In this document: positions 50 through 15,850 of the stretch, in pieces
How positions within the stretch are numbered: the first letter of the stretch is position 1
How the letters are laid out: the number at the start of each line of letters is the position of its first letter
Origin: Hyphomonadaceae bacterium
GTDB taxonomy: Bacteria > Pseudomonadota > Alphaproteobacteria > Caulobacterales > Aquidulcibacteraceae
Direction of reading: 5' to 3'
Assembly: GCA_016791365.1 (NCBI GenBank)
Contig: JAEUMT010000013.1
Span: forward strand, 1-64,000
DNA: 64,000 nucleotides
Program-made: the position numbers and the translations under genes
Notes under the pieces: generated by a model
Seen by the model: only the letters and a program-made list of their open reading frames with translations
What the model was told of the DNA's origin: nothing
Database searches by the model: none

Positions 50-139
<90 letters not shown>

Positions 140-382
140 GCCTTCTTAGTTTGTCTGCACAAAAACAACCGTTTAGACGCGTGCCTGTCGCGAGTAATTT
201 TCCTCCCCGAGCACTACCCACTTTGTAGTGCGCTCGAGCTTGCGCGATGCTGTCGGTGCGTGCATGCCGCAAGGTGGCAAAGCCGGTTCACGTGGCGATC
301 GCCAAATATTCCCTAATCACGGTTGCCGCTACGGTTGACCATCCTCAGATACCTCCTCAACCTCTCGTTACAGCGGGGCTGG

Positions 383-727
383 ATGAGAGATTCGGAAAGG
401 GTCAAACGAGTTTACGCCGAGCTGAGGCGCACGGAGGGGATCAGCGCTTCAGCTGCCGACCTCATACGGTTGGCGCACCTACTAGTCCAAGTCTTCAAGT
501 CAGACTTCGACGATCTTCGAGAGTTTGGGAAACCCTACGAGCCGAAGAACTTTGCGACTCAAGAAGTCGATTTGGCGATGTCGGACGGTGGTTGGAAAGT
601 TCTCCATTTCGAGCTGGACCAGCAACGAGAGTCGCTCGAAATGGAATGGGGCGCGCACGCTTACCGACACAGCAGACTACAATTTTTCTTGGGACCAGCA
701 TGGCAGGTAAAAACTCCCCCGGGCTAA
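383..727 (+). CDS. Hypothetical protein, first gene of the accessory block
   Basis: About 114 residues from the ATG at 383, which has GGGG six bases upstream; a TTG at 323 would add 20 residues. I recognise no family. The N-terminal half is basic and helical (DSERVKRVYAELRRTEG), the middle has an acidic stretch, and there is no signal peptide or membrane segment. It overlaps the following helix-turn-helix gene by 28 bases and runs in the same direction, so the two are probably co-transcribed and translationally coupled with the HNH-helicase gene. The lower GC of the whole block suggests transfer. Its reality rests on position and length only. Confidence 0.5.
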   Translation: MRDSERVKRVYAELRRTEGISASAADLIRLAHLLVQVFKSDFDDLREFGKPYEPKNFATQEVDLAMSDGGWKVLHFELDQQRESLEMEWGAHAYRHSRLQFFLGPAWQVKTPPG

Positions 728-975
728 CGACGGCGGCGAAAGAGCACTTGGTGTCGGGTTTGCCGCTCACACGTCTCGAAGCGCTCATTTTCTTTGGCGT
801 CTCCAACTTGCCTGAACTCGTCTATGAGATGCGAAAGCAAGGCTGGAAGGTCGAGTCTCGCGCTGTGCCCTACGCGGCCGCTTTGGTTCGCGTGAACAAG
901 CACGCGACGTTGAAGCCGCCGGCAAACCTGCCTGTGCGAGAAATCACCTTGACGGAGTACTGGGTGAGTAAGTGA
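700..975 (+). CDS. Small phage-type helix-turn-helix protein (HTH_39-like)
   Basis: 91 residues. The core around LTRLEALIFFGVSNLPELV, followed by YEMRKQGWKVESR, matches the pattern of the small winged-helix proteins common in prophages (helix-turn-helix family PF14090): a 'TRLEAL..FG' helix, a short turn, a recognition helix and a 'G..IE.R' wing. It is probably a DNA-binding accessory or regulatory protein. The start is the ATG at 700; the longer open frame back to 247 overlaps the previous gene and looks unprotein-like. The stop overlaps the GTG of the next gene (GTGA at 972-975), so the two are likely made together. The family call is from memory of the motif. Confidence 0.65.
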   Translation: MAGKNSPGLTTAAKEHLVSGLPLTRLEALIFFGVSNLPELVYEMRKQGWKVESRAVPYAAALVRVNKHATLKPPANLPVREITLTEYWVSK

Positions 976-2816
976 AACGGTTCTTTTCCTCCAGACAACG
1001 TTTCATCTTGGCGCTCTTGTCGGGTGGGAGATGCAAGAAATGCAGTGCCAAGCTCCACAGTGACTTCCATGCGGACCACGTGAAGCCCTTCTCGAAAGGC
1101 GGCATTACAGCGCTGTTTAACGGGCAGGCACTCTGCGAACGATGTAATCTGAAGAAAGGTGCGACGATGATGAAGCTCCGCCCTTGGCAATCCGAAGCGC
1201 TGAAAAAAGCGATGAGCTGGCTCGTCGATCAGGCCACGGATCGGCACTTCTTGATCAATGCTGCTCCAGGCGCGGGTAAGACCATAGCCGCCTGCGCGAT
1301 CGCCAAAGACCTTATCGACCGAGACGAAATCGACAGGGTCATCGTCATCGCGCCGCGAGTCGAAGTCGTGAAGCAATGGGCTGACGACTTTAAGCTCGTT
1401 ACAGGCCGATATATGGGCAAAATCACGGGTGCCGACGACAAGATCGAAATCGACGTGTGTGCAACTTGGGCGGCCGTCCAAGGTCTGCAGGACGCTTTTC
1501 AAGCCGTTTGCATGGACAGTCGTGTACTACTTATCTGCGATGAGCATCACCACGCGGCAGTGGCCGCCGCTTGGGGGCGCGGCGTAAATGATGCGTTCGC
1601 GCGGGCTCAGTACGTCCTAGTGCTTACCGGGACGCCCATCAGATCCGACGGCCAACAGTCTGTTTGGATGGCGTATGACAGCCTGGGCAGGATCGATCAT
1701 CCAGAGGCGGGCACCTACACCATAAGCTACGGTCAGGCTGTTGACCTCGGATATTGTCGGCCAGCGACGTTTCATCGACACGAAGGCCGCTTCACCGTTG
1801 ATCTCGAGGATGGAGAGCAGGTCACCGTTTCGAGTAAGTCCCCGGCGAGCTTGAAGCCAGAGCTTTCTCGTATCGCCGGCCTGCAACGCGCGCTCGACTT
1901 TTACAAGCTCGCGTGTGCACCGCAGTTCGAGGCGGACAAGGTGACGCCGCGTGCTGACGGTTATCAGGGCACCATGATCGAGTGGGCTAGTAGCAAGCTT
2001 TCCGACTTGCGATTGCGAATGGCCAACGCCGGCGGGCTGGTGATCGCGCCTTCAATCGAGATGGCGCAATACATGGCTCGTCTCATCGAACTTATCGAGG
2101 GAGAGGCGCCCACGGTGGTTCACAGCTTGATGCCCAACGTTGAAAACAAAATCGCCAGCTTCAAGCACACTGATAAGCGTTGGGTCGTTTCCGTTGCGAT
2201 GATCTCCGAGGGCGTCGACATCAAGCGTTTGCGCGTTCTGATTTACCTGCCGAATGCTCTCACCGAGCTTGCATTTCGGCAGGCAGTCGGTCGTGTAGTT
2301 CGCACGAATGGTCCGGACGATGACACGCGCGCTTATGTTATAATGCCGTCCTTCGATATCCTCGAAACCTTTGCTCGCCGGGTCGAAGACGAAATGTCTC
2401 CCGGGATGCGCGTGGATTCTTCGCCGAAGACTAAACGCTGTCCGATTTGTGCCACGGAGGCGGCTCTCGGCGCGAAGACCTGCGAGGAGTGTGGCCACGC
2501 GTTTCCGCAAGCGCCTCCGCGTTTTCGCCCATGTCCCAAGTGCCAAGCCCTGAACCCAATGGGCGCCACCACTTGCCAGCAGTGTGGTTCCAGTATGAGT
2601 GTGGACTTTGTTCTAACGCTCGATGAAGCGTTGCGGACCGGCGCCATTGTGCGCGGAATGGATATCGAAGAGGACGAGGTTCAGCAGGGCGAAGGCCTCG
2701 CAGATTCTGTTCGCAAGGCGGTGATCGCCAGTGGCGACGAGAAGTTGGTCAAAGTCATTCGGCAACTGCCGGAGGAGAGTTGGGCGCGTCTGAAGAAGCT
2801 ATTCGATGAGAGCTAA
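972..2816 (+). CDS. HNH endonuclease - SF2 helicase - zinc-ribbon fusion protein
   Basis: 614 residues with three visible modules. Residues 20-63 are an HNH nuclease: C21/C24 and C55/C58 knuckles, D35-H36 in the HADHVKPFSKGG strand, N50, and a closing CNLKKG. Residues 67-470 are a superfamily 2 helicase/translocase: Walker A APGAGKT at 98-104, DEHH at 190-193, TGTP at 219-222, and motif VI QAVGRVVR at 437-444. Residues 490-507 and 521-538 are two tandem CxxC...CxxC zinc ribbons. It is therefore likely an ATP-driven DNA translocase carrying its own nuclease, as in restriction or anti-phage enzymes. The GTG start overlaps the previous stop. The 3' end overlaps the convergent methyltransferase gene by 62 bases. 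Alternative: a prophage replication helicase with a fused HNH domain. Confidence 0.88.
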   Translation: MKRFFSSRQRFILALLSGGRCKKCSAKLHSDFHADHVKPFSKGGITALFNGQALCERCNLKKGATMMKLRPWQSEALKKAMSWLVDQATDRHFLINAAPGAGKTIAACAIAKDLIDRDEIDRVIVIAPRVEVVKQWADDFKLVTGRYMGKITGADDKIEIDVCATWAAVQGLQDAFQAVCMDSRVLLICDEHHHAAVAAAWGRGVNDAFARAQYVLVLTGTPIRSDGQQSVWMAYDSLGRIDHPEAGTYTISYGQAVDLGYCRPATFHRHEGRFTVDLEDGEQVTVSSKSPASLKPELSRIAGLQRALDFYKLACAPQFEADKVTPRADGYQGTMIEWASSKLSDLRLRMANAGGLVIAPSIEMAQYMARLIELIEGEAPTVVHSLMPNVENKIASFKHTDKRWVVSVAMISEGVDIKRLRVLIYLPNALTELAFRQAVGRVVRTNGPDDDTRAYVIMPSFDILETFARRVEDEMSPGMRVDSSPKTKRCPICATEAALGAKTCEECGHAFPQAPPRFRPCPKCQALNPMGATTCQQCGSSMSVDFVLTLDEALRTGAIVRGMDIEEDEVQQGEGLADSVRKAVIASGDEKLVKVIRQLPEESWARLKKLFDES

Positions 2817-4446
2817 CAATTGCGCGTCGTGACTTTCGCGTGCTCGGAATCGATTTCTCGTCGAGCGCAGCGTTCACAGCGCTGCCAATGAGCAAACCAC
2901 TCGCGATTGTTGCTGAGTTCGCCAGAAGCTTTTCCTCGCCAATGGGGCTTCGAGCCATCTGCAGTCGAAGAGCTTCTGAAACTAGTTCTTTCGCAAGCTC
3001 TTCATCCGCCGAAAAGGCGTCGCGCATACGTGCGCCCAAGGCTCCAACTTCGTCTAACAGGTCAAACGCTCGGGTGACGCCCGGTCCACGGTGAGACCAG
3101 AGCGATTGCATGTTTGTGATGTCTGAACGCGAAACGAGCACTTCCGCCTCCTTCGCGATCGAAAGCAAGTCTCGTCGTCTCCGCTGCACGATCGCTAGGA
3201 GGGGACGTAGGAGCGGTCTGCCAAGATCAATCGATTGGATCGACTTCGACGATCCGTAATAGAAATCCACAGTCCATTCGGTACTTGCATTGTCAAAGTG
3301 GTTGGACAGCTCAAAGCGAACGCCGCTGCTGAGTCTAAGGTTTGGAATCGCAAATCGGAAACGACGGTTCTCGGGATAGCGTCGTCCAGCAGTTTCGGGA
3401 CGCGTTTCTTTGGGAGAAGCTTCGGGACTAACAAGCGATTTAGCGAATGATGTTAGTAAAGGCACCCGCGATTTGGGGGTTCCCTTCATCGCATGCGCGA
3501 TGAAGTATGCCATCGGAGGTGGCATCGCGTTGCCAATCATTCGCAGCTTTTGAGCGTGCGACTTTCCGTAGAACTGAAACGTAATCGGGAAACCTTGCAA
3601 GCAAGCGCGCTCGCGAAGCGTGAGACGTCGATAGCGACCGTTTGCGTCACGTATTACAATGCTCTCGCGCGATACCCGCGTGCAAGTGGCGGTCACGGTT
3701 CGAGACGCTCTTCTACTAGAATCTGGGAACGGCATTTGATTGTAGACGGGGTGATGCCGTTTTGCTGCCCGGTTTATCCGGGTCTCCTCATCATTGAGCG
3801 GTTCTTCGATTGCATGCTCCGTGAGTTTGCGCCGATCGAGGATAATTCCGTAGTTCGGATCGCAAATCTTGCCTTTGTCGAGAGCGCTAACAACGCCTCC
3901 TAACGTTTGCGCGTCAGTCTGATCCCGGTACGAATCAAGAAGCGCGAAGTCGAAGTTACCGACAATGCAGCGACTGCGGCGTTGCGGTAGTCCAAACGCT
4001 TCCATGTTTATGACGCGGTGTTGGATGCCCAGTTGGCGGAAGCGGTAAAGCGCGCCACCTTTCCGCAGCTCCGCGTCAATAATCGCCGCGATACGCGGGA
4101 CGTTTTCCATTGCCCAGAATCGAGGTCGCACGTGCGCCACGATCTCAAAAAAGCGGATCAAATCCTGAAGCCCATCTGCGACGTCGCCGTTGCCACCGCG
4201 ATTTGCGTACGAGAACTGCGTGCACGGCGGACTTCCAACAACCAGATCAATCCGCTTCGGGAGATTCTTTAGGGATAGCGTACGCACATCTATCGTTTGG
4301 GCACGGTGTTTGTTGTTGCGGAAGTTTGTCTCGTTTGCTGGGCCCCACCATTCATAGGATCCAACGACTTTGATGCCAGCCAGACGCAGCCCAAGAGACC
4401 AACCGCCGACGCCAGAATAGACGTCTATCGCCCGCATCGCAGTCAT
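2755..4446 (-). CDS. DNA (cytosine-5) methyltransferase with long C-terminal extension
   Basis: 563 residues from the ATG at 4446, which has GGAG 8 bases upstream; an upstream ATG at 4524 lacks this. Canonical C5-MTase motifs are present: SAM loop DVYSGVGGWSLG at about 8-19, catalytic GSPPC with Cys75, ENV at 114-116, QRRSR at 155-159, a TATCTRVSRE target region, and GNAMPPPMAY near 305. It transfers methyl from SAM to C5 of cytosine. After about residue 325 come some 240 residues that belong to no MTase motif and that I do not recognise. It converges on, and overlaps, the HNH-helicase gene. Such a pair would fit modification plus restriction, with the MTase protecting self DNA. GC content is lower than in flanking genes. 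Confidence 0.9.
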   Translation of the reverse strand: MTAMRAIDVYSGVGGWSLGLRLAGIKVVGSYEWWGPANETNFRNNKHRAQTIDVRTLSLKNLPKRIDLVVGSPPCTQFSYANRGGNGDVADGLQDLIRFFEIVAHVRPRFWAMENVPRIAAIIDAELRKGGALYRFRQLGIQHRVINMEAFGLPQRRSRCIVGNFDFALLDSYRDQTDAQTLGGVVSALDKGKICDPNYGIILDRRKLTEHAIEEPLNDEETRINRAAKRHHPVYNQMPFPDSSRRASRTVTATCTRVSRESIVIRDANGRYRRLTLRERACLQGFPITFQFYGKSHAQKLRMIGNAMPPPMAYFIAHAMKGTPKSRVPLLTSFAKSLVSPEASPKETRPETAGRRYPENRRFRFAIPNLRLSSGVRFELSNHFDNASTEWTVDFYYGSSKSIQSIDLGRPLLRPLLAIVQRRRRDLLSIAKEAEVLVSRSDITNMQSLWSHRGPGVTRAFDLLDEVGALGARMRDAFSADEELAKELVSEALRLQMARSPIGEEKLLANSATIASGLLIGSAVNAALDEKSIPSTRKSRRAIVSSHRIASSDAPNSPPAVAE

Positions 4447-4599
4447 CGTGGTCTCCGTTCTTCGGTACCACTGAATCGAAACTCGTTGTGTTTGACAAGA
4501 TCCGCCATGCCGCGCACCCGGCAATTGTTCGGTTCAAAGGCGAAACAGCTCACCGATCGCCTTTAGAATTCGTTTGCCGCAGCCGCGTGGGTTGTCGGG

Positions 4600-5115
4600 T
4601 TAGCCGGCGTTGACGAGGACGCGGATGCGTTCGTCGGTGATGGCGGCGGGTGCGGCGGTGGCTTGCACAGTGCGCTGGTTGGGGCGCCCGCCGCGGACGA
4701 AGACGACGTAAACATCGCCGACGGCGCCGGTGATGGCGTCGAAGCCGGGGAGCGGGCCGCAGCTGGTGGCCTCGGTGTAGCTCAGCGTGAAGCGGTTGGC
4801 ATAGGCGCGGCCTTTGAGACCGCGGATGCTGCGCAGCGTGACGCGTTGGCCGTAATCGTTGGCGTTTGGTTGCACGCGGACGATGCGGGCGAGGAAGACG
4901 CTGTCGGCTTCGTCCCAGAGGCGCGATTGGCGGTCAGCGCGCCATTGCGCGTCTTCGGCGTCGCGTTGCGCTTGCCAGGCGGCGGCGCGAGTCGCGTAGG
5001 CTTCGTCGCTCTCGCCTTGCTCTTGCGGCGGCGGCGGCATCGGCATGCACGCTTGCGCGGTATTGGCCGTGAGGAGCGCGATGGCGGCGGCGAGCGCGAG
5101 GAGCCAAGTTTTCAT
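4600..5115 (-). CDS. Small secreted protein, TIMP/NTR-like pattern
   Basis: 171 residues. A signal peptide (MKTWLLALAAAIALLTANTAQA) is followed directly by a mature N-terminus ACMPMPPPP. The middle is a charged, Ala/Gln-rich helix. The C-terminal half has 'DSVFLARIVRV', then 'VTLRSIRGLKG', and a later Cys in TSCGPLPGF. This layout (Cys right after cleavage, VF.A.V strand, .L...KG strand, later Cys) resembles bacterial TIMP/netrin-like OB-fold proteins and is also seen in the protein at 17584-18249. No catalytic motif is visible. The gene lies just beyond the accessory block and has the GC content of the main chromosome. Function unknown; probably periplasmic. Confidence 0.75.
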   Translation of the reverse strand: MKTWLLALAAAIALLTANTAQACMPMPPPPQEQGESDEAYATRAAAWQAQRDAEDAQWRADRQSRLWDEADSVFLARIVRVQPNANDYGQRVTLRSIRGLKGRAYANRFTLSYTEATSCGPLPGFDAITGAVGDVYVVFVRGGRPNQRTVQATAAPAAITDERIRVLVNAG

Positions 5116-5148: not shown

Positions 5149-5922
5149 TCAATGCGCGATGAGGCTGCGGTAAAGCATGTAGGCGGCAACCGCGAATACG
5201 ACGCCGGCGAAGACGCGCTGCAGCGCGCCGCGTTGTTTGGAAAGATGCGTGGCGAAGCTTGCGCCGATGACGCCGCCGATGAGGCCGCCGCCGATGAAGA
5301 GTGCGGCGATGCGCCAGTCGACGAGGCCGTCGAGGGCGTAGGAGGCGGCGGTGGTGGCGCCGAAACTGCCGACGCTGAAAAGCGATGAGCCAATGGCCTG
5401 GATCATGGTCATGCCGGTGGCGCCGATGAGGCCGGGGACGATGAGGAAGCCGCCGCCGATGCCGAAGAAGCCGGAGAGCGCGCCAGCGCCGAGGCCGTAA
5501 GCGATGAGCTTGGGCGCGTTCTGGGCGTTGAGAACAACGTCGCCGGCGCCTTCATCCTTGCGCGGGCGGAGCATGGCGACGCCGACGACGATCATCAGCA
5601 GCGCGAAGAGCGGCAGCAGCACTTGCGCGTCGGTGATCTTGCCGATAGCGGCGCCGGTTGCAGCCCCGACGACGCCCGCGGCGGCGAACACCATGGCGCA
5701 GCGCCATTTTACGTTGCCGCGGCGGGCGTGGTTGATGAGGTTGGCGAAGGCGTTGACCGAAACCGCAAGCGCGCTGGTGCCAATCGCCATGTGCGGGTTC
5801 GCGACGCCGACGACGTAAAGCAGCGCCGGCGTCGCCAGGATCGAGCCGCCGCCGCCGATCAATGCGAGCACGAGGCCAACAGCGCCGCCGCTGAGGATTG
5901 CGAGGAAATCGGGGAGCGTCAC
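5149..5922 (-). CDS. TauE/SafE-family membrane exporter
   Basis: 257 residues from the GTG at 5922, whose GTGA overlaps the stop of the rhodanese gene; a longer frame to 5979 would overlap that gene. About eight hydrophobic segments and the two repeated glycine-rich motifs of the TauE/SafE family (LIGGGGSILATPALLYVVG and FFGIGGGFLIVPGLIG) are clear. Members export sulfite, sulfoacetate or related sulfur anions across the inner membrane. In the bigR-type locus this protein is thought to remove sulfite produced by persulfide oxidation. It is last of three coupled genes (regulator, rhodanese, exporter). Confidence 0.9.
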   Translation of the reverse strand: MTLPDFLAILSGGAVGLVLALIGGGGSILATPALLYVVGVANPHMAIGTSALAVSVNAFANLINHARRGNVKWRCAMVFAAAGVVGAATGAAIGKITDAQVLLPLFALLMIVVGVAMLRPRKDEGAGDVVLNAQNAPKLIAYGLGAGALSGFFGIGGGFLIVPGLIGATGMTMIQAIGSSLFSVGSFGATTAASYALDGLVDWRIAALFIGGGLIGGVIGASFATHLSKQRGALQRVFAGVVFAVAAYMLYRSLIAH

Positions 5923-6452
5923 GCGGTAAGGCTGCCGCAATTCCAGGGCATGGTCTTTAGCAGAAGCGCCATGCCGCACCAGCCGGTCGCGCCGGCGAAG
6001 GTGAGGCCGGCGCCGATGAAAGCGGAGAGTGCGTAAAAGCCGGGGCTGACGAGGAAGCCCAACACAACGCCGGTGAGCACGAGCGAACCGGCGGTGATTT
6101 GAACTTGCCGCATGATTTCGATCGGCGCCTTGCGGTTAGCGTGCACCGGCAAGCCGGCCTGTTTCCAGGCTTCGATGCCGCCTTCGAGGTAATAGGCCTC
6201 GGCAAACCCGCGTGCGAGCAGCTTCGCCGCATTGGATTGCGTGCGCATTCCCGACCGGCAGTGAAACACCGCGGCTTTGGCGTGGTCGCGATCGAAATCG
6301 TGTGAATCGATCGCTGAGAGCGGCGCGAGGCGTGCGCCGAGGATATGCTCGCGCGCATGCTCGTCCGTTTCGCGGATGTCGATCAGGATGGCCTGGCCGC
6401 TATCGAGCTTCCGCTTGAGGTCGGGCGCGGTGATGGGATTGAGCGAGGTCAT
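5919..6452 (-). CDS. Rhodanese domain fused to DUF2892 membrane anchor
   Basis: About 177 residues. The N-terminal rhodanese domain has the active-site loop HCRSGMRT with the sulfur-carrying Cys. A C-terminal hydrophobic hairpin (LVLTGVVLGFLVSPGFYAL..., LTFAGATGWCGMALLL) is the DUF2892/YgaP-type membrane anchor. The family transfers sulfane sulfur; here it likely handles persulfide sulfur at the inner membrane. The ATG at 6452 overlaps the regulator's stop (ATGA), and the end overlaps the exporter start (GTGA). The upstream TTG at 6476 is less likely because it would overlap the regulator by 28 bases. Confidence 0.9.
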   Translation of the reverse strand: MTSLNPITAPDLKRKLDSGQAILIDIRETDEHAREHILGARLAPLSAIDSHDFDRDHAKAAVFHCRSGMRTQSNAAKLLARGFAEAYYLEGGIEAWKQAGLPVHANRKAPIEIMRQVQITAGSLVLTGVVLGFLVSPGFYALSAFIGAGLTFAGATGWCGMALLLKTMPWNCGSLTA

Positions 6453-6775
6453 TTCCGTTTCCGTTTCGGAGGGCAATAAATCCGCGCGAGCGTGCTGAGT
6501 ACGCGTACAACGTTGGGATCAGCGAGGCGGTAATAAATCTTCTGGGCGTCGCGGCGGGTATCGACCAGACCCTCTTCACGCAAGCGCGCAAGATGTTGCG
6601 AGAGGGCCGATTGTGAGAGGCCAGAGCCCGCCTGCAACGCGCCGGCCGAATGTTCGCCGCCGAGCAGCTGGCAAAGCACCATCAGGCGCGCCTCGTGGGC
6701 GAGCGCCTTCAAAAGCGCCGCCGCCGCGCCGGCCTTGGCGGCAAACTGCGTGGGGGAGAGTTCAGCGACCGCCAT
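6449..6775 (-). CDS. bigR: ArsR-family persulfide-sensing repressor, BigR/SqrR-like
   Basis: 108 residues. A winged-helix core (LLKALAHEARLMVLCQLLGGEHSAG..., SQSALSQHLARLREEGLV) carries two cysteines, C35 in LMVLCQL and C101 in ARIYCPP. This pair matches the position pattern of the redox cysteines of BigR/SqrR, which form a di- or tetrasulfide bond on exposure to persulfide and release DNA. The metal-binding ELxCxC motif of ArsR/SmtB sensors is absent. It heads the rhodanese-exporter operon and diverges from the persulfide dioxygenase, the known bigR locus layout. It probably represses both directions from the AT-rich intergenic region. Confidence 0.85.
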   Translation of the reverse strand: MAVAELSPTQFAAKAGAAAALLKALAHEARLMVLCQLLGGEHSAGALQAGSGLSQSALSQHLARLREEGLVDTRRDAQKIYYRLADPNVVRVLSTLARIYCPPKRKRK

Positions 6776-6784
6776 CGTGTCGCA

Positions 6785-6829
6785 CAATATATCACTGGAA
6801 ACTAAATTAGCAATGTCTAATATATAAGG
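6785..6829. promoter_or_regulatory. Divergent promoter/operator region of the BigR-like regulator
   Basis: The 84-base gap between regulator and dioxygenase is unusually AT-rich. It contains two inverted repeats: CTAAATTAG at 6802-6810 and TTAGCAATGTCTAA at 6807-6820, followed by TATATAAG. AT-rich short palindromes are typical BigR-class operators. The assignment to this regulator is inference from position. Confidence 0.55.
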
Positions 6830-6859
6830 ATTGCAGCCAATAAATGATCGGGAGTTCAC

Positions 6860-7720
6860 ATGAGAGTCCCCCAGGTGCGTGCGTTCTTCGACGAACCCAC
6901 ATTCACAGTGAGCTATCTGGTCTGGGATCCCGCCACCCGGCGCGGCGCCGTGATCGATAGCGTGCTCGATTTCGATCCAAAATCCGGCCGCACTGGCACG
7001 CGCTCCGCGGAAGCCATGCTGAAGGCGGCCGAACAGGAAGCTGTGACCATTGATTGGCTGCTCGAGACTCACGCTCACGCCGACCATATTTCCGGCGCGC
7101 CATTCCTGAAAAAGGCGACCGGCGCGCCGATCGTGATCGGTGAGCACATCAAGGCGGTGCAGCGTGTGTTCAAGGATGTGTTCAATCTGAGCTATGTGAC
7201 CGCGGATGGACGGCCTTTCGATCGGCTGGTGACGGACGGCGAGGCGCTTCCGCTTGGCGAGCTTGAGATCAAGGTGTTGCACACGCCCGGGCACACGCCG
7301 GCCTGTGTTTCCTATCTGATCGGCGACGCTCTGTTTGTCGGAGATACGGTTTTCATGCCGGATTATGGCACGGCGCGGACGGACTTTCCGGGCGGAGACG
7401 CGCGCACGCTCTATCGGTCGATCCAGAAATTATTGGCGCTGCCGGAAGAGACGCGCATGTTCTTGTGCCACGACTACAAGGCGCCGGGGCGTGACGTTTA
7501 TGCCTGGCAGACCACCGTTGGCGAACAGCGCGGCAAGAATATTCATCTCGCCGGAATCAGCGAGGACGAGTTCGTCGCGATGCGTGAAGCGCGCGACAAG
7601 ACCCTCTCCATGCCGGCTCTGATTCTGCCGTCGATTCAGGTGAACATCCAAGCTGGAGAGTTGCCGCCGCCGGAGGCCAATGGCGTGCGCTATTTGAAGT
7701 TGCCGATCGACGTCCTCTAA
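6860..7720 (+). CDS. Persulfide dioxygenase (ETHE1/Blh-type metallo-beta-lactamase fold)
   Basis: 286 residues. Metal and family motifs are all present: THAHADH (about 71-77), HTPGHTPACVSYL, GDTVFMPDYGTARTDFPGGD and CHDYKAPGR. The TDFPGGD and CHDY signatures separate the ETHE1/Blh persulfide dioxygenases from glyoxalase II. Expected reaction: glutathione persulfide plus O2 gives sulfite and glutathione, using one iron. The divergent rhodanese and TauE exporter would supply persulfide sulfur and remove sulfite. The ATG follows GGGAG eight bases upstream. Confidence 0.92.
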   Translation: MRVPQVRAFFDEPTFTVSYLVWDPATRRGAVIDSVLDFDPKSGRTGTRSAEAMLKAAEQEAVTIDWLLETHAHADHISGAPFLKKATGAPIVIGEHIKAVQRVFKDVFNLSYVTADGRPFDRLVTDGEALPLGELEIKVLHTPGHTPACVSYLIGDALFVGDTVFMPDYGTARTDFPGGDARTLYRSIQKLLALPEETRMFLCHDYKAPGRDVYAWQTTVGEQRGKNIHLAGISEDEFVAMREARDKTLSMPALILPSIQVNIQAGELPPPEANGVRYLKLPIDVL

Positions 7721-9344: not shown

Positions 9345-10061
9345 TTGCTCGCGAAGCGCATCTTCATTCTGACCGGGGCAGGCGTTTCGGCGGAATCCGG
9401 ATTGTCGACATTTCGTGACGCGCGCGGCGTCTGGAAGACGTACAAACTCGAGGAAGTTGCGTCGATTCAAGGCTATGAGCGCAATCCTGGCTTCGTTCTC
9501 GACTTCTACAATATGCGGCGGAAGACGCATAAAGGCGTTGAACCGAACGCGGCGCATACAGCTTTAGCGCGCCTGCAGCAAAATTGGGCTGAGCGGGACG
9601 GGGACGTCACCATCTGCACCCAGAACGTCGACAATCTGCATGAGCGCGGCGGCGCGCAGCGCGTGTTGCACATGCATGGCGAGATCGCGAAGGCGCGCTG
9701 TCATGAGTGCGGAGCCATCGTGTCGTATGATGGCGATCTTTCGATCGATCTTGGCTGCGTCGCCTGCGGGCGGGTCGGCGGGATGCGGCCGCACGTGGTC
9801 TGGTTCGGTGAAACGCCTTTTTTGATGGATGAAATCTACGAGGCGCTGGCCGCCGCCGATCTCTTCGTCTCGATCGGCACCTCAGGAAACGTCTATCCGG
9901 CCGCGGGATTTGTGTCGGCGGCGCGGCGGGCGGGAATCCCGACGCTGGAGATCAATCTCGAACCATCGGAAAACGCTAGCGCTTTCGACAATGGGCGTTA
10001 CGGAAAAGCAACCGAGCAAGTGCCTGCCTGGGTCGCAGAGCTGATGGCGTACGCGGACTAG
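9345..10061 (+). CDS. cobB: Sirtuin-family NAD-dependent protein deacylase
   Basis: 238 residues. Sirtuin motifs in order: GAGVSAESGLSTFRD (NAD loop), TQNVDNLHE, catalytic HMHGE, two CxxC zinc pairs (CHEC, CVAC), and GTSGNVYPAAGF. FYNMRR carries the Tyr-x-x-Arg of class III sirtuins, so succinyl-lysine may be a substrate as well as acetyl-lysine. The start chosen is the TTG at 9345, preceded by GGAGG with 5-base spacing and starting right at the family's first strand (AKRIFILTGAG). In-frame TTG 9288 or GTG 9312 would add an unrelated N-terminus. Cytoplasmic. Confidence 0.92.
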   Translation: MLAKRIFILTGAGVSAESGLSTFRDARGVWKTYKLEEVASIQGYERNPGFVLDFYNMRRKTHKGVEPNAAHTALARLQQNWAERDGDVTICTQNVDNLHERGGAQRVLHMHGEIAKARCHECGAIVSYDGDLSIDLGCVACGRVGGMRPHVVWFGETPFLMDEIYEALAAADLFVSIGTSGNVYPAAGFVSAARRAGIPTLEINLEPSENASAFDNGRYGKATEQVPAWVAELMAYAD

Positions 10062-10115
10062 GCGGGAACCGTTTTCGCACTAATGTGACTGCGTGGGGAA
10101 TTGAGGAGCGTGCGT

Positions 10116-10754
10116 ATGTTTGGACGTTTGGCGGCTCTCGCCTTGGCCGTGGGTCTGGCGGGCTGCGCGGGTGTCGAACCGGCAGGCCGCAATGCGCAGC
10201 GCACGCGTCCGTCACCCGCCGCGACGGCCCCGGTCACGGCGCCGGCGCCGGCGCCGCGCGCGAGTTTGCCGCCGCCGCAAACCTCTGCTGCGCCTACGCC
10301 CGCGCCAACTCCGCAGGTCGCATCGCCGCCGCCGGCTCGCCAAAGCGCGCCAGTGACAACGGCGCCGCCGCCAGCGCGCCAGAGTGCGCCGGTGATATCA
10401 TCCGCGCCTCCGCCCGTCGCTGCGCCGCCTGTCGTCGCACCGCCCGTCGCCGCACCGCAAGTGACGGCGCCGCCGCCGTCGCAGCCGCTGCGCGCGCGTT
10501 CAGATCGCGACGACATCGTCGTGCCCGGCCAAGTGGAGACTCAAGTTCGCCCGCCGAACGGCGATCCCCGATCAAACGAAGAGCGCCGCGCCGATGTGCG
10601 CTCGTGGGATCAGTGCATCACGCAAGTGCAGGGCGCGTTCGACAGCGATCCGATGAGCCCACAACTCACGACGCCGGAAGAATATTGTTCGCAATCGCTT
10701 GGAATGTCGGACCGCACGTCGGTGCCGATCGGGCGCCAGCAGCGCCGTCGCTGA
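10116..10754 (+). CDS. Proline/alanine-rich lipoprotein
   Basis: 212 residues. The signal MFGRLAALALAVGLAGCAG has a lipobox (LAGC). About 110 residues of Pro/Ala/Thr-rich low-complexity linker follow, with repeated APPPARQSAPV units, and then a 70-residue C-terminal part with WDQCITQVQGAF and EEYCSQSL holding two cysteines. The linker suggests a cell-envelope spanning tether. The ATG at 10116 has GAGGAGC upstream. Function unknown. A perfect palindrome overlaps its stop. Confidence 0.75.
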   Translation: MFGRLAALALAVGLAGCAGVEPAGRNAQRTRPSPAATAPVTAPAPAPRASLPPPQTSAAPTPAPTPQVASPPPARQSAPVTTAPPPARQSAPVISSAPPPVAAPPVVAPPVAAPQVTAPPPSQPLRARSDRDDIVVPGQVETQVRPPNGDPRSNEERRADVRSWDQCITQVQGAFDSDPMSPQLTTPEEYCSQSLGMSDRTSVPIGRQQRRR

Positions 10755-10765
10755 TCAGCGACGGC
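10744..10765. repeat. Perfect 22-bp palindrome at the 3' end of the lipoprotein gene
   Basis: GCCGTCGCTGA followed by its exact complement TCAGCGACGGC; it contains the TGA stop. It could form a bidirectional transcript-end hairpin between two convergent genes, although no T tract follows. Confidence 0.6.
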
Positions 10766-10786
10766 AGATCGGCCGCGTCGGAAAAT

Positions 10787-11188
10787 TCAATCGGCCTCTT
10801 CGAGCAGCTGATCCATGTGATCGTCGCTGAGCCCAAAGTGATGACCGATTTCGTGGACCAGAACGTGCGAGACAAGCTCCCGAAGTCCAACATCGCCGCG
10901 TTCGATCCATTCTTCCAGGATTGGCCGCCGGAATAGAAATACCATCGGTTGGCCGGGCGTGGGGTCGGTGACGGAGCGCTGCGTGAGATCGACGCCTGAA
11001 TAGAGCCCGGTCAGTTCGAACGGATCGTCAATGCCCATTTCCGAGAGCGTTTCTTCGTCGGCGAAATCTTCAACGCGGATCAGCACGTCGCCCGCGAGCG
11101 CGCGAAATTCTTTCGGCAGCTCGGCCCATGCTTCGCGCGCGTGGCGGTCGAGATCGTCGAGCGAAGGGGCGGGCGGGTCGGTCATCAT
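10787..11188 (-). CDS. Zincin-like metallopeptidase (PF06262 type)
   Basis: 133 residues. The zinc site HEIGHHFGLSDD (HExxH plus the third ligand Asp) near the C-terminus, and the N-terminal DDLDRHAREAWAELPKEF segment, are typical of the small bacterial metallopeptidase family PF06262. Cytoplasmic; substrate unknown. Two adjacent ATGs (11188, 11185) are equally possible. It is divergent from a secreted protein gene and convergent with the lipoprotein at 10116. Confidence 0.88.
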   Translation of the reverse strand: MMTDPPAPSLDDLDRHAREAWAELPKEFRALAGDVLIRVEDFADEETLSEMGIDDPFELTGLYSGVDLTQRSVTDPTPGQPMVFLFRRPILEEWIERGDVGLRELVSHVLVHEIGHHFGLSDDHMDQLLEEAD

Positions 11189-11276
11189 TTGCAGAGACTA
11201 GCGGGAACCGTGACGCTGATCACGGACAGGCGCCGAGAAACGCGCTTAGCTGGAGATATTGTAATCGGAGGCGTCC

Positions 11277-11717
11277 ATGCGCAGCGCACTCGTTGTTCTT
11301 GTCACAATTGGTTTCATCCTCGTGGCGGCGCCGACGGCGGCTCAAACCAATGCGATCCCGCCGAACGTTATTGCGGGGCTCGAGCGCGCGCCAATTCTGG
11401 ACGGGGTGTGGCGCGTGAATGGGTTGGGCGATCTCACTTTGGCGACACGGCCAAATGAGGTGCTTGAGGGCTCGCTGAACGGCCGCGCGTGCGGCGGCCA
11501 GTATCGCGGCAACGCCTTCTCGGTGTTTTGCGAAGGGGCCGATCGCGGCCCCTATCTGATCAGCGGGCAGGCCTCGCTGGCGCCGCGCGAGAACAGCACG
11601 GCACGGTCGCGGGTTTTCGCCCAGCCCGCGCGGATGTCCGGGCAGATTCATCAGAGCTATCTGACGGCCCGGGGCCATACCGAGGAAATCGCCGCCCTAA
11701 GCGCCACTAGGCAATAG
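11277..11717 (+). CDS. Small exported hypothetical protein
   Basis: 146 residues. A signal peptide (RSALVVLVTIGFILVAAPTAAQ) precedes a mature domain of about 120 residues with alternating strands: LDGVWRVNGLGDLTLATR, LEGSLNGRACGGQYRGNAFSVFCEG. Two cysteines could form a disulfide. The pattern suggests a small beta-barrel (META/lipocalin-like). No family is assigned. It lies upstream of the diiron protein gene, with regulatory palindromes between them. Confidence 0.7.
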   Translation: MRSALVVLVTIGFILVAAPTAAQTNAIPPNVIAGLERAPILDGVWRVNGLGDLTLATRPNEVLEGSLNGRACGGQYRGNAFSVFCEGADRGPYLISGQASLAPRENSTARSRVFAQPARMSGQIHQSYLTARGHTEEIAALSATRQ

Positions 11718-11722
11718 TGTAA

Positions 11723-11764
11723 CGTCAAGTTGACGCCCCCGTCATTTTTCTTGATCCAGATCAA
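11723..11764 (+). promoter_or_regulatory. FNR/FixK-type box plus a second palindrome
   Basis: TTGATCCAGATCAA at 11751-11764 is a perfect match to the FNR/FixK consensus TTGAT-N4-ATCAA. CGTCAA-G-TTGACG at 11723-11735 is a separate perfect inverted repeat, 15 bases upstream. Both lie ahead of the diiron protein gene (start 11843), suggesting oxygen-responsive control with a second regulator. Confidence 0.7.
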
Positions 11765-11842
11765 GTGAGCGGCTAGGATGTGACCATTCAGAAGAATGGT
11801 CCGCGCTCCAGGCTGCGGCCACATACCGGGAGAGACGACGCG

Positions 11843-13003
11843 ATGGCCGATTCCGCCGCCCCTATCCGCCAAATTACCAAGGACGAGGTCTATGACGCCG
11901 TTCCGCCGACGGATTTCAGCCAGATGCTGGAGATCGACCGTCACCTGAACCGCTCGACCGCGTTCGATAAGATCATCTCGGCGACCCACGATCACTTCTG
12001 GGACCCGCTGGACACCAAATACATCGACTTCAAAGACGACTTCGATCCGGACACGACGGACTTCATCCCTGACGTGATGATCCCGGCGTTGCTGACCGAT
12101 TACGTCTCGAACCACTTCGCCGACAAGCCGGCTGAGCGCATCCGCTTTAAGAGCCAAGTCGGCCGTTGGGTGATGAGCTCGATCCTGCACGGCGAGCAGG
12201 GAGCGCTGAATCTCTCGGCTTCGCTCTGCCATGTGCTGCGCGATCCGGGCGCACAGGAATACGCCGCCAACCAAACGCGTGAAGAAGGCCGTCACGTCAC
12301 GGCGTTCGCGAAGTACATCATCGCGCGCTGGGGCTCGCCGCTCCCGGCCGGCACAGTGCTCGCCGGGTTGCTGCAGGAGATCGTGCACGCGCCGGAGGTC
12401 TATAAGAAGATCATCGGCATGCAGATGCTGGTCGAAGGGCTCGCCATGGGCGCCTTCGCGACGATTTTCAAAGAGTGGGAAGATCCGCTGGTGAAGCGTC
12501 TGACGCAGCTGGTGATGACGGACGAAGCTTTCCACCACAAGTTCGGGAAGATTTGGGCCGACCGCACCATTCCGAAGCTTTCGGCCGAAGAGCATGAGAT
12601 CGTCGAGAACTGGGCGGCGCATTGCTTCCAGACGCTGCTGTTCAACCTCGTCGCGCCGCATCAGATGACGGCGATCTACGCGCAGTTCGGCTTGGACCCG
12701 GACAAGGTGATGCAGGGCTTCCAGGAAGTCGCCACTGACGAAGCGCGGCGCGAACACATGAAGGAAGGCACCAACATCTTCCGCGTGCTGGTGAAGACGC
12801 TCTGGAACGCTGGCATCATCACCGACCGCACCAAGGGCTTCTATGCGATGTACATCGACTTCGACGAGTTCAAGGCCGAAGGCGATGAGATGGTCGGCGA
12901 CGCGATCGCCGACGAGGGCATCCAATATTTGAAGACGATCAATTTTGGCATCAATGCCGGCGCTTTGAGCGATGTGAAAGCGGCGGCGGTTGCGGCTGAA
13001 TAA
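11843..13003 (+). CDS. Ferritin-like diiron protein
   Basis: 386 residues, start ATG 11843 with GGGAGAG upstream. Helical, with Glu/His pairs spaced as in ferritin-like di-metal proteins: HGEQGALNLSASL, TREEGRHVTAFAKY, MLVEGLAMGAF, TDEAFHHKFGKIW. These could supply the E...ExxH / E...ExxH iron ligands of the R2/desaturase/AurF superfamily. Probably an oxygen-activating oxidase or oxygenase; the substrate cannot be read. Monocistronic, with a FNR-type box upstream and a strong terminator behind. A GTG at 11780 is in frame but lacks a ribosome site. Confidence 0.8.
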   Translation: MADSAAPIRQITKDEVYDAVPPTDFSQMLEIDRHLNRSTAFDKIISATHDHFWDPLDTKYIDFKDDFDPDTTDFIPDVMIPALLTDYVSNHFADKPAERIRFKSQVGRWVMSSILHGEQGALNLSASLCHVLRDPGAQEYAANQTREEGRHVTAFAKYIIARWGSPLPAGTVLAGLLQEIVHAPEVYKKIIGMQMLVEGLAMGAFATIFKEWEDPLVKRLTQLVMTDEAFHHKFGKIWADRTIPKLSAEEHEIVENWAAHCFQTLLFNLVAPHQMTAIYAQFGLDPDKVMQGFQEVATDEARREHMKEGTNIFRVLVKTLWNAGIITDRTKGFYAMYIDFDEFKAEGDEMVGDAIADEGIQYLKTINFGINAGALSDVKAAAVAAE

Positions 13004-13028
13004 GTTCTAGTCCGTACGCAAACTTCAA

Positions 13029-13058
13029 CGCCCACTCGAAAGAGTGGGCGTTTTGTTT
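13029..13058 (+). terminator. Rho-independent terminator of the diiron gene
   Basis: CGCCCACTC-GAAA-GAGTGGGCG stem with a GAAA tetraloop, then TTTTGTTTT; it begins 25 bases after the stop. Confidence 0.93.
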
Positions 13059-13090
13059 TGCGTCAGCGTGTAACGCCGTGCGTGTCGGTC

Positions 13091-13894
13091 CTAAGGCGTC
13101 GGCGCCGGGGCGGGTGTTCGTTGCGCCGGCTGCGTCGCGCCGGTGACGCTATCGAGTTGCTCCATGTTCTGACCGACTTGCTCGGCGACCGCTTGTGGGT
13201 CGATCAGTTGATAGCCCGCGGGCACGCCAAACAGCGCTGCATCCTGATCGCCGCGTTGCAGCGATGTGGCTTCCCAGAGCGTGCGGCCGCTTTCGCTGAC
13301 ACGGAGCACGATGCCGTCATCGGTGATGCAAGCGGTGCGCTCCACGCCTGGCGCCGGCGCTTCGCGCGGCGTCCATTCGTGGCCGGACTCTCCCGCGACT
13401 TCGCATTTGCCGGTCGAACGCGCGTTCTCGGCGCCGAGAGCCGCCCATGCGGTTTCAAATGGCTGCGGCGCGTCGGCATCTTCGATGCGAACAGCGACCC
13501 CCACAACTTGCGGCGGCGGCGCGGCGGCTGTCGTGGCGGGAGGCGCCGTCGTCGTGGTGGCGGCGGGCGGCGTTGCGGTCGTGGTTGGCGCCGTAGCTGG
13601 TTGAACGGCCGCCGTGGGCAATTGGCCCGTCGGATTCAGCACGTATGCGGCATTGGTGGATTCATCGAACACGATTGTGGCCTCGCCCATGTTCGGCAGC
13701 ACCGTCTCAACGCGCAATTTGGGGCCGTCGCGATAGACAACGGTGTGGACCGGGGCGCCGCCGTTTGCGTCGGCGGTTGATCCTTCAATGCGATAGGAGG
13801 CTTCGCCGAATGTCGGATAGGCGGGTGCGCCAAGGCCGCACGCGGAAAGCAACGCGGCCGCGGCCGCCGCGGCCAGGAAAAAGCTCTTACGCAT
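13091..13894 (-). CDS. Hypothetical lipoprotein with Thr/Pro/Ala linker
   Basis: 267 residues from the ATG at 13894. The signal MRKSFFLAAAAAAALLSACG ends in a lipobox. Residues about 25-75 form strands (YPTFGEASYRIEG, PKLRVETVLPNMGEATIVFDE) resembling the short beta domain of DUF4412-like proteins. A low-complexity Thr/Ala/Pro linker follows, then a second domain with one Cys pair (GKCEVAG, RTACITDD). Unknown function, envelope localisation. A longer frame to 14143 overlaps mmcB and was not used. Confidence 0.72.
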   Translation of the reverse strand: MRKSFFLAAAAAAALLSACGLGAPAYPTFGEASYRIEGSTADANGGAPVHTVVYRDGPKLRVETVLPNMGEATIVFDESTNAAYVLNPTGQLPTAAVQPATAPTTTATPPAATTTTAPPATTAAAPPPQVVGVAVRIEDADAPQPFETAWAALGAENARSTGKCEVAGESGHEWTPREAPAPGVERTACITDDGIVLRVSESGRTLWEATSLQRGDQDAALFGVPAGYQLIDPQAVAEQVGQNMEQLDSVTGATQPAQRTPAPAPTP

Positions 13895-13990
13895 GGAAAC
13901 AATCCTTTTCTCGATGCCGCACGAACGCTTGCGCGGGCATCGCAGTTCCGGGTGCTTGTTCCCGCCGAGGGGGAGTGCGAAAATGTGCTG

Positions 13991-14422
13991 ATGGATGACG
14001 GCATTCCGCTTAAGCGGCCCGAGGTCACCGCAGCGCTTGCGCGCGGCGTCACGCGTATGCTGGCGGAACATGGGCTTGCGTCGATCCTTGAAGTTCCGCT
14101 CGCGAATGGCCGTCGCGCCGATGTGATGGCGCTGACGCAGCAAGGCGAGATTTGGATCGTCGAAACCAAATCTTGTCTCGAAGACTATGCATGCGATCAG
14201 AAATGGCCGGAGTACGTGGATTATTGCGATCGCTTTTTCTTCGGCGTCACCGAGACATTCCCGCGTGACCTCATTTCAGAGGAATGCGGCCTGATTGTCG
14301 CCGATGGATTTGGCGGCGCTATTTTGCGCGATAGTCCGGTGCGGCAATTGTCCGGCGCGCGCCGCAAAGCGGTGACGCTCTTGTTTGCGCGGTTGGCGGC
14401 GTTTCGCGCGGCGGAGTTTTAG
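13991..14422 (+). CDS. mmcB: MmcB-family DNA repair protein
   Basis: 143 residues. A PD-(D/E)xK-like core is visible: ADVMALTQQGEIWIVETKSC has the D...ExK pattern, followed by DQKWPEYVDYCDRFFFGV. This matches the alphaproteobacterial MmcB family (PF06319), a LexA-controlled protein of Caulobacter linked to mitomycin C damage repair. Start ATG 13991; divergent from a lipoprotein gene. Its stop interlocks with that of the DUF1254 gene in TTAG at 14419-14422. No clean LexA box was found upstream. Confidence 0.88.
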   Translation: MDDGIPLKRPEVTAALARGVTRMLAEHGLASILEVPLANGRRADVMALTQQGEIWIVETKSCLEDYACDQKWPEYVDYCDRFFFGVTETFPRDLISEECGLIVADGFGGAILRDSPVRQLSGARRKAVTLLFARLAAFRAAEF

Positions 14423-14943
14423 CCCGCCAGGCGCGCCACGGAGGCGCAAATGTCTTCGCCCGCCACTGCCTTTGCCGCATCATATGCGCTTGGGGTCGGA
14501 GCAAGGCGCCGGATGAGTGCGATGCCACGCACGCTCGGGCTCTCGACGATCATCGACGCGCCCTCGGGGTGCGCCGTGCCGCTGCGAACGACGGTGAGCT
14601 CGGCGCCATAGTGCGCTTCGCGATCGTCGATGACGAAAAAGTTGTCGCTGTTGGCGGCGTAGAGTGAGAGTGACCAATAGGCGTCCCACGGCGTTGCCGT
14701 GATCACGACCGGGCCCTGGGTGAGATCGAAGGTGCAGGCCGAATACGCGAAATCGGGTGAGGGGCGTACAATTTGGCGCGAGGTGGCGGTGACGCGGTCG
14801 CCCAAGCGCCAAACATTCTCCGCGCCGCCGGTGATGCGATCCATCGCGACATGCATCAGTACGCGCGGGGTGGCGAAGATCAGCGCGAAGTGCGCAAGCG
14901 CCGCCACAATAAGCGCGCTAAGAACGTATCTGCCCCAATTCAT
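14419..14943 (-). CDS. DUF1254 domain protein
   Basis: 174 residues. An N-terminal membrane anchor (YVLSALIVAALAHFALIFATP) is followed by the DUF1254 strand pattern SPDFAYSACTFDLTQGPVVITA and WSLSLYAANSDNFFVIDD. It overlaps the DUF1214 gene by ATGA, and the two short proteins together correspond to the two halves of the larger DUF1254-DUF1214 proteins. Periplasmic side of the inner membrane; molecular function unknown. Confidence 0.82.
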   Translation of the reverse strand: MNWGRYVLSALIVAALAHFALIFATPRVLMHVAMDRITGGAENVWRLGDRVTATSRQIVRPSPDFAYSACTFDLTQGPVVITATPWDAYWSLSLYAANSDNFFVIDDREAHYGAELTVVRSGTAHPEGASMIVESPSVRGIALIRRLAPTPSAYDAAKAVAGEDICASVARLAG

Positions 14944-15524
14944 GACGGATCTCCCGCGCACGAAACGGTGGTGAGCGTTGGCAGGCTCGCTTCGTCCGGG
15001 TGGAAATCGCGTTGCGGATTGTACACCCGCAATGTCAGGCTAAAGCCACGCCGCGCGGCGCGTGACGACACCCAACTCGCTGCATCGCCGCGCACCGGCG
15101 ATATGCGTGCGCTCCAGGCGCGATCATTGCCAAGCCGCGAGGCGTCGATGGAGTGTGCATTGTCTGTGTTCTGCGCCAGGAAGTTGTCGTCAGCGTACAG
15201 CGTCAGCGACCACCAGCGCGCGTCGAGCGGCAAGCCGGCAACATTGTAGATGCAGCTTTCACTGAGCGGGCGGCCTTGCTCGTCTTTGTAAATTGAAAAA
15301 TACAACGCTTCCCGCGCTGACAACGCCAGCAATCCATCGCGTGCGATGATGGCGCGTGTGTAAGGGCCAGCCGCGGTCGAGCCCGCGGCGCGGCTATGCA
15401 CCCAGCGCCCATAGTGTTCAGTGAAGCTGGCGGCGCCAAATTTCAGTGTCGCCCACGCCGAAGCGCCGCCGAGTATGACGCCTGCTACGATGGCTAGAAG
15501 CCAAGCAAATATCCGACGCAGCAT
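14940..15524 (-). CDS. DUF1214 domain protein
   Basis: 194 residues from the ATG at 15524. N-terminal transmembrane segment (IFAWLLAIVAGVILGGASAWA). The DUF1214 core follows: YFSIYKDEQGRPLSESCIYNVAG, ARWWSLTLYADDNFLAQN, FSLTLRVYNPQRDFH. First gene of a coupled pair with the DUF1254 protein. The shared 'WSLxLYAxDxxF' strand in both proteins suggests they are structural relatives that may pair. Confidence 0.83.
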   Translation of the reverse strand: MLRRIFAWLLAIVAGVILGGASAWATLKFGAASFTEHYGRWVHSRAAGSTAAGPYTRAIIARDGLLALSAREALYFSIYKDEQGRPLSESCIYNVAGLPLDARWWSLTLYADDNFLAQNTDNAHSIDASRLGNDRAWSARISPVRGDAASWVSSRAARRGFSLTLRVYNPQRDFHPDEASLPTLTTVSCAGDPS

Positions 15525-15559
15525 AACGTTCCCCACGCCCCACGGAACGAATGTCCGCG

Positions 15560-15850
15560 TCACGTCTCCGTTGGAACTTTGAGGTCGAGCGTGAGTGCGT
15601 GCAAGCCCGTTTCAAATTCTTCACGAAGCGTCTCGTAAACCAAGCGTTGACGCGCGACGCGGGAAAGCCCGTCGAAAGCCGCGGCGTGCATGGTCAGATG
15701 ATAATGGGTCTCGCCGCCGGGCCGGGCGCCCGCGTGCCCTACGTGCGCGCCGGATTGATCCGTCAACACAAAGTGAACGGGCTTAAAACGAGCACGAAGC
15801 TGCGTTTCAATGCGCGAAGCGCGCGAAAGATGCGTTTTGTTCTCTGTCAA
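15560..15850 (-). CDS. bolA: BolA-family protein
   Basis: 96 residues. The BolA signature is clear: RIETQLRARFKPVHFVLTDQS, HVGHAGARPGGETHYHL, and a C-terminal RQRLVYETLREEFETGLHALTL. BolA proteins act with monothiol glutaredoxins in iron-sulfur cluster trafficking and affect morphology and stress response. TTG start with AAGGA just upstream. It is divergent from the J-domain gene; bolA next to the J-domain gene and cobS is a recurrent alphaproteobacterial arrangement. Confidence 0.93.
   Translation of the reverse strand: MTENKTHLSRASRIETQLRARFKPVHFVLTDQSGAHVGHAGARPGGETHYHLTMHAAAFDGLSRVARQRLVYETLREEFETGLHALTLDLKVPTET

Follow-up and report, generated by a model that had tools for sequence, protein, structure and literature searches.

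Genes at the locus

We analysed a stretch of 64,000 nucleotides from a Hyphomonadaceae bacterium (assembly GCA_016791365.1, contig JAEUMT010000013.1, positions 1 to 64,000 of the forward strand; hereafter the window), which opens with a tRNA-Ser gene followed by a compact block of four genes. Three of them form an operon encoding a small protein (g1), a winged helix-turn-helix (HTH) protein and a protein that combines an HNH nuclease, a superfamily 2 (SF2) motor and zinc ribbons in one chain (the helicase protein below); the fourth encodes a convergent C5 cytosine methyltransferase. The operon recurs in other genomes, and we read it as a candidate defence module. The features are as follows.

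50..139, plus strand: tRNA-Ser(CGA), found with ARAGORN; presumed integration site
140..4599, no strand: foreign-looking island (GC content 56.1% versus 63.3%; homology breaks)
383..727, plus strand: g1, a small, fast-evolving protein of no known family, first gene of the operon (114 amino acids, aa)
700..975, plus strand: HTH_39-like winged HTH protein (91 aa)
972..2816, plus strand: HNH, SF2 motor and zinc-ribbon protein (614 aa, GTG start)
972..1163, plus strand: HNH nuclease domain, residues 1-64 of the helicase protein (Pfam HNH, 4.2e-9)
1170..2396, plus strand: SF2 motor, about residues 67-475, with APGAGKT, DEHH, TGTP, SEGVD and QAVGRVVR (Pfam and motif inspection)
2439..2585, plus strand: two CxxC-x10-CxxC zinc ribbons, residues 490-507 and 521-538 (Pfam DZR and motifs)
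4446-2755, minus strand: C5 methyltransferase open reading frame (ORF), 563 aa, convergent to the helicase gene
3472..4446, minus strand: C5 cytosine methyltransferase domain, residues 1-325 (Pfam DNA_methylase, 4.3e-42)
2755..3471, minus strand: C-terminal extension of the methyltransferase, residues 326-563 (~240 residues), conserved in its subfamily

A preliminary description, made from the letters of the window alone, had placed ORFs at 383-727, 700-975 and 972-2816 and a convergent C5 methyltransferase at 4446-2755, and had seen a nuclease, an SF2 motor and zinc ribbons in one chain. ORF and Pfam searches agree on both points, the helicase protein matching ResIII (5e-23), HNH (4.2e-9, residues 21-64), Helicase_C (8.8e-7) and DZR (1.3e-6). 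The HTH and helicase genes share 4 bp (GTGA), a junction that is identical in the window and in the related loci L007, L014 and L015, and the stop codon of the helicase gene lies inside the methyltransferase gene, resulting in a convergent overlap of 62 bp. The HNH residues Cys21/24/55/58, Asp35-His36, Asn50 and Asn59 are invariant in five aligned proteins, as are all eight zinc-ribbon cysteines in six, and the SF2 motifs and both zinc ribbons are intact in the window protein. Between the window and L007 the helicase gene differs at 22, 15 and 64% of codon positions 1, 2 and 3, respectively, indicating purifying selection.

The first gene of the cluster is, as had been proposed, without a known family: g1 had no match in Pfam, PHROG or NCBIfam and a weak one only in PADLOC (0.058), and its AlphaFold2 model, built from four sequences, reached a mean pLDDT (predicted confidence) of about 55, too poor for a fold search. 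The HTH protein had been called phage-type. Its HTH_39-like character stands, since the orthologue in L007 passes the HTH_39 cut-off with 31.0 bits, while the window protein lies just below it (20.4 bits versus the curated 21.3). The protein had no match in phage or plasmid records.

A conserved and rare module

A scan of 84,980 species, taken together with the searches of related genomes given below, yielded at least eight close module loci, a lower bound rather than a census. Beside the window itself these are, with helicase identity to the window, L007 (74%), L014 (64%; a metagenome-assembled genome (MAG) of Rubrivivax), L015 (61%; Aminobacter), L016 (66%; gammaproteobacterium HTCC2148), L017 (51%; an alphaproteobacterial single-cell genome) and L177 and L178 (65-66%), the last two being related to L016 and, like it, gammaproteobacterial. 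The module is chromosomal in all eight genomes. The HTH gene is present in 8/8 loci and g1 in 7/8, always upstream of the helicase gene. HNH is found in 7/8: it is fused to the motor in four (the window, L007, L014 and L015) and is a separate ORF overlapping the start of the motor gene in L016, L177 and L178. Fusion in four loci and overlapping adjacency in three argue for one joint function of HNH and SF2; similarly, the recurrence of the gene order beside helicases that are 51-74% identical, together with purifying selection, argues that the gene cluster is not a chance arrangement. The preliminary description had proposed counting how often the HTH, HNH-SF2 and C5 methyltransferase genes occur together; in these loci HTH is present in 8/8, HNH in 7/8 and the methyltransferase in 2/8.

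The hidden Markov models (HMMs) of g1 and HTH were at first built from some of the loci that they found, and a leave-out rerun followed. Each left-out g1 row was recovered at E values of 4e-17 to 6e-9, and the HTH result also holds. In L015 and the gammaproteobacterial loci, g1 was missed by tblastn and found by alignment and HMM only. Near-chance scores were given by a viral ORF in one of five leave-one-out g1 models (E 0.007; L106, L107) and by an archaeal plasmid ORF (L010) with the leave-out HTH models (0.005-0.017). When viral and genome contigs were scanned with patterns from the helicase protein alone, no relative was confirmed; the alignment-based genome scan succeeded.

In a tree of 73 helicase sequences the eight close loci group into a single clade of their own, supported at 1.0. 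Of the 76 genome loci L018-L093, 12 were chosen for this tree and 11 used; 15 chosen sequences were dropped as the motif pattern missed them, and the tree leaves out L158 and L159. The helicase is rare, occurring in 1/299 genomes of the order (E 1e-30) and 2/385 of the class (1e-20), and, at 1e-70, in 1/397, 1/76, 1/389 and 3/371 genomes of the orders around four relatives, counts in which the centre genome is itself the match or one of the three. Judged by these sequence comparisons, the g1-HTH-(HNH)-SF2 operon is a conserved module, accessory and rare.

The island beside tRNA-Ser

As the preliminary description had noted, the cluster lies beside a tRNA-Ser gene and is lower in GC than its flanks: 140-4599 has 56.1% compared with 63.3% for 4600-64000, below 275/275 other stretches of the same size in the window. 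Homology of the sister genomes to the tRNA-Ser stops at window positions 140-142 in 5/5 loci and none was found further into the island, while on the right homology to relatives resumes at 4600, 4600, 4605 and 4624 in four genomes and at 4994 in a fifth. From the low GC and these homology breaks, 140-4599 looks like a foreign block.

In one sister genome, G077, the position directly behind this tRNA-Ser(CGA) is taken by a tyrosine integrase (Pfam), after which come prophage-like genes (locus L194, contig C23), so that this tRNA marks a hot spot of insertion for the genus. Base 1 of the window is the contig end. The host gene on the right, near 4600, is present in 8 of the 26 relatives searched, own genome included; in the five relative regions fetched this gene has no tRNA beside it, and the left flanks mostly differ. 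No attachment (att) repeats of the tRNA were found, nor was an intact empty site among the relatives. The missing repeat, the missing tRNA and the differing flanks speak against a simple insertion, so that the borders of the island are drawn solely from the homology breaks. We conclude that, as far as sequence context can tell, the tRNA hot spot here carries an accessory block, the exact borders of which are inferred.

To the right of the island, at 5149-7720, the window encodes a TauE/SafE exporter, a rhodanese with a YgaP-like membrane part, an ArsR-type regulator and a metallo-beta-lactamase-fold enzyme. This sulfur-handling cluster resembles BigR-type sulfide detoxification.

Neighbours of the module

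Four of the eight module loci adjoin a PADLOC-recognised type I HsdR or a retron-type reverse transcriptase (RT). HsdR lies beside L016, L177 and L178 (1e-268, 3e-270 and 0, respectively), where tyrosine integrases are also near; among the proteins scanned were HsdM in L178 and RtcR-CARF in L016 and L177, and L016 has ARPP-1 as well. Passages of PMC11090510 describe CoCoNuT loci in which restriction genes lie between RtcR homologues. L014 adjoins a 1057-aa retron-type RT protein (6e-73), and the neighbours of L015 are the methyltransferase, a resolvase and a pair resembling an insertion sequence. Downstream of the module in L014 (3878-9079), the 1057-aa protein, whose RT is C-terminal, is followed by a 350-aa protein and a MoxR-like AAA ATPase.

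These neighbours bear on whether the helicase might be a mobile RadD-like DNA-repair or stress helicase that gained a nuclease and has nothing to do with phage defence. RadD is the nearest solved structure to the motor by sequence (1.3e-8, ahead of LlaBIII at 9.8e-8 and LlaGI at 2.2e-7). The patchy distribution, the island location, the HNH partner and the defence neighbours, however, all point away from a repair role, and we consider it improbable.

Relatives in phages

The preliminary description gave a remnant of a phage replication block as its main alternative, and relatives of the helicase are indeed encoded on 66 viral contigs. HNH-SF2 proteins are common among them, at least 25 of the 66 carrying HNH by a strict pattern. 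Around 13 phage HNH-SF2 genes, 89 neighbouring proteins were scanned; among those recognised were DnaB-like helicases, RecT, exonuclease VIII, RusA, primase/helicase, integrases and DNA methyltransferases, each with one or two members. A prophage-like integrase, moreover, occupies the same tRNA-Ser in the sister genome. The phage versions, however, are 21-36% identical in the best segment, with varying coverage (23-36% across most of the match), and fall outside the close clade, no relative of which turned up when viral contigs were scanned for it. At E 0.1, an HMM search of the 66 viral loci gave no g1 or HTH gene; with the leave-one-out models, the near-chance score in L106/L107 was the only g1 hit and there was none for HTH. 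The island holds no structural or replication gene. As phage HNH-SF2 helicases belong to other clades and lack g1 and HTH, the origin as a replication remnant is unlikely, and the chromosomal location in eight genomes and the defence neighbours at 4/8 loci make it, in our judgement, highly improbable.

The C5 methyltransferase

The methyltransferase looks active by sequence, with motifs I, IV, VI, VIII and X intact and the Pfam match of 4.3e-42. A Foldseek search with its model returned known C5 methyltransferases, M.HaeIII being the best, and a profile search against solved structures aligned the methyltransferase domain only. The C-terminal extension, modelled as a beta hairpin and helices (residues 533-563 with low confidence), aligned at 31-37% identity in L015, L197, L198, L200, L201 and L202.

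In a restriction-modification (R-M) system built of an HNH motor and a solitary C5 methyltransferase, as first suggested, the two would be expected to travel together. This proposal is partly supported: the module is a distinct one, while a fixed pair finds no support in the form first put forward. The methyltransferase adjoins two of the eight modules, those of the window and L015, in both cases immediately convergent; the L015 enzyme is a full-length relative (46-48%) that converges on the helicase gene across a 30-bp gap. It was not found in G482, G679, G681 and G682, nor in G1718, G1818 and 41 comparison genomes, the latter search having no positive genome, although the same query matches G680 elsewhere.

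One explanation is that the core is a defence module and the C5 methyltransferase a modification gene, solitary or of phage origin, that has no relation to it and was inserted next to it on two occasions. Its presence in only 2/8 modules fits this, as do close relatives on phage contigs (L197, L198/L199, L200 and L202) where no helicase partner was seen by eye. In a small, weakly supported tree the window and L015 enzymes are, moreover, not sisters, the former grouping with L008 and the latter with L201 (0.81, 0.85); enzyme and module may therefore have been paired on two separate occasions, or L007 may have lost the gene. On the other hand, the two enzymes share subfamily, convergent orientation and position (a 62-bp overlap versus a 30-bp gap), and the subfamily had no match in 47 other genomes (4 + 43), which makes chance adjacency on two occasions unlikely. 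We regard this explanation as quite possible, without favouring it.

Another explanation dispenses with self-marking: a type IV-like or structure-sensing nuclease, whose motor would recognise modified DNA or replication and repair structures. Six of the eight modules are without such a methyltransferase, and the motor resembles RadD in sequence (NCBIfam RadD, 2.1e-14; 52.7 bits versus a cut-off of 720). HNH is common among modification-dependent enzymes according to a passage of PMC12707154. An enzyme cutting 5-methylcytosine would, however, endanger hosts with an adjacent C5 methyltransferase, and a Pfam search of the island proteins gave no SRA, EVE or other modified-base reader. This possibility appears rather unlikely to us.

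The long-form subfamily to which the methyltransferase belongs recurs beside differing helicase-containing defence genes. A relative in L008 (55% over two pieces) adjoins DISARM DrmA-/DrmB-like pieces on a Burkholderia aenigmatica plasmid; there (9782-15774) an annotated IS3 transposase lies between the helicase and DUF1998 pieces, and the methyltransferase is split into two ORFs. In L201 (5980-11618; a contig filed as viral) the relative is transcribed convergently with an operon that encodes a NOV_C protein, an SNF2 helicase with ZorD/DrmD/DpdE-like matches and a protein of 435 aa that has no match in Pfam; by its gene content, this operon with its methyltransferase is a candidate for another defence system. 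The relative in L010 adjoins genes annotated as BREX-5 pglX and a MutH/Sau3AI-type endonuclease, and nothing was recognised in the one neighbour scanned for that in L009.

Proposed function

Taken together, we consider it probable, at roughly 0.6, that the locus carries a horizontally acquired, compact nuclease-motor defence module, undescribed so far, in which a C5 methyltransferase is enlisted at some loci to mark self DNA. Recruitment of the complex to DNA may be the task of the zinc ribbons and of the HTH protein together with g1; the motor, which is RadD/ResIII-like, would move along the DNA using ATP, and the HNH domain would cut invading DNA, with g1 and the HTH protein targeting or licensing restriction. 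In the window and in Aminobacter (L015), host DNA would carry the self mark of the convergent long-form C5 methyltransferase. At the other loci the core would have to work without this methyltransferase or lean, for example, on the adjacent type I R-M, as in the three gammaproteobacterial loci. Choice between self and non-self would depend on modification, and the module is predicted to protect against phage.

Several observations weigh against this proposal. The methyltransferase was not found in the six other module genomes, which is the main evidence against a classical R-M pair; several module genomes are drafts, MAGs or a single-cell assembly, so that absence there is not proof, but an enzyme missing from the sister module L007 and five others cannot be an obligate self-marker. 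L017 has neither g1 nor HNH. No recognised defence neighbour was seen at L007 and L017, where only some neighbours were scanned, and since the three gammaproteobacterial loci are related, the linkage to HsdR does not represent three independent events. To these are added the position of a repair helicase, RadD, as the nearest solved sequence to the motor, and the failure of any PADLOC model to span the SF2 protein in full length.

A more tentative and somewhat doubtful variant is that of a plug-in restriction effector: a transferable g1-winged HTH-HNH-SF2 cassette without a fixed methyltransferase, which would team up with whatever self-marking is at hand (C5 methylation in two alphaproteobacterial loci, type I R-M in the gammaproteobacterial ones), g1 and HTH serving as adaptor or licence. 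As HNH and motor are naturally separate in three loci, and as the methyltransferase is present at some loci and lacking at others, how such motors spare host DNA can be tested directly.

Comparison with known systems

The preliminary description could not name a system in which a single-chain HNH translocase has a Dcm-type partner, and our comparisons agree: the cluster could be assigned neither to the RadD family nor to type I, type III, DISARM or Druantia, and no description of an HNH-SF2 helicase defence system was found in the open-licence PubMed Central literature, where absence is weak evidence. Among defence-system profiles, the best PADLOC match of the helicase protein was PbeA (1.2e-15, residues 59-225).

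With regard to type II R-M, the C5 methyltransferase looks active and is linked to the nuclease gene in 2/8 module loci. Type I R-M was rejected since the four proteins gave no HsdM or HsdS match and the motor is HsdR-like only in part (EcoAI-type, 42.6 bits versus a cut-off of 550). With type III the locus shares the ResIII-type motor domain only, its methyltransferase being C5 and its nuclease HNH instead of an N6/N4 Mod enzyme and a Res helicase that has a nuclease domain of its own. For Druantia type II, no DruE is among the listed motor matches and the island has no further genes; the methyltransferase matches DruM models at 9.6e-37, second to MTase_II (1.6e-45). The SF2 architecture is that of RadD (YejH), which is not known to carry HNH, and the motor remains far below the cut-off of NCBIfam NF053632 (52.7 versus 720 bits; E 2.1e-14).

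DISARM class 2 (DrmA, DrmB, DrmC, DrmMII) likewise joins helicase genes to a C5 methyltransferase, and the L008 relative lies by DrmA/DrmB-like pieces. The island, however, is without DrmA, DrmB (DUF1998) and DrmC, none of which is among the best 25 PADLOC matches listed for its four proteins, host genes begin near 4600, and the motor is not DrmA-like. PbeABCD / CxC-DndE offers a nuclease-SF2 fusion in PbeA, which a passage of PMC10853773 describes as an HKD nuclease with an SF2 helicase, sometimes accompanied by cytosine methylases; here HNH replaces the HKD nuclease, and PbeB, C and D are absent. HKD-SF2, PD-(D/E)XK-SF2 and wHTH-SRA-HNH proteins, and also cytosine methylases, appear in Dnd- or BREX-type systems in excerpts of PMC10853773 and PMC12839542, which contain no HNH-SF2 fusion.

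HNH-SF2 helicases of the type found in Saccharomonospora phage PIS 136 have HNH directly before SF2 as well, with the same conserved HNH residues. Unlike the island protein, they form separate clades, lack zinc ribbons (in those aligned) and the g1/HTH operon, and have replication-region neighbours; with the close clade monophyletic in 8/8 loci (support 1.0) and no replication gene in the island, the protein was not counted among phage replication helicases. The type ISP enzymes LlaBIII and LlaGI, which rank among the solved proteins closest in sequence to the motor, also unite a nuclease and an SF2 motor in a single chain that cuts unmodified DNA. In them the chain further contains an N6-adenine methyltransferase and a recognition domain, whereas the nuclease of the island protein is HNH, its chain is free of any methyltransferase, and the C5 enzyme is separate and optional. 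If it protects against phage, the module would add to the known nuclease-motor defences an HNH-SF2 motor with a dedicated winged-HTH and g1 partner.

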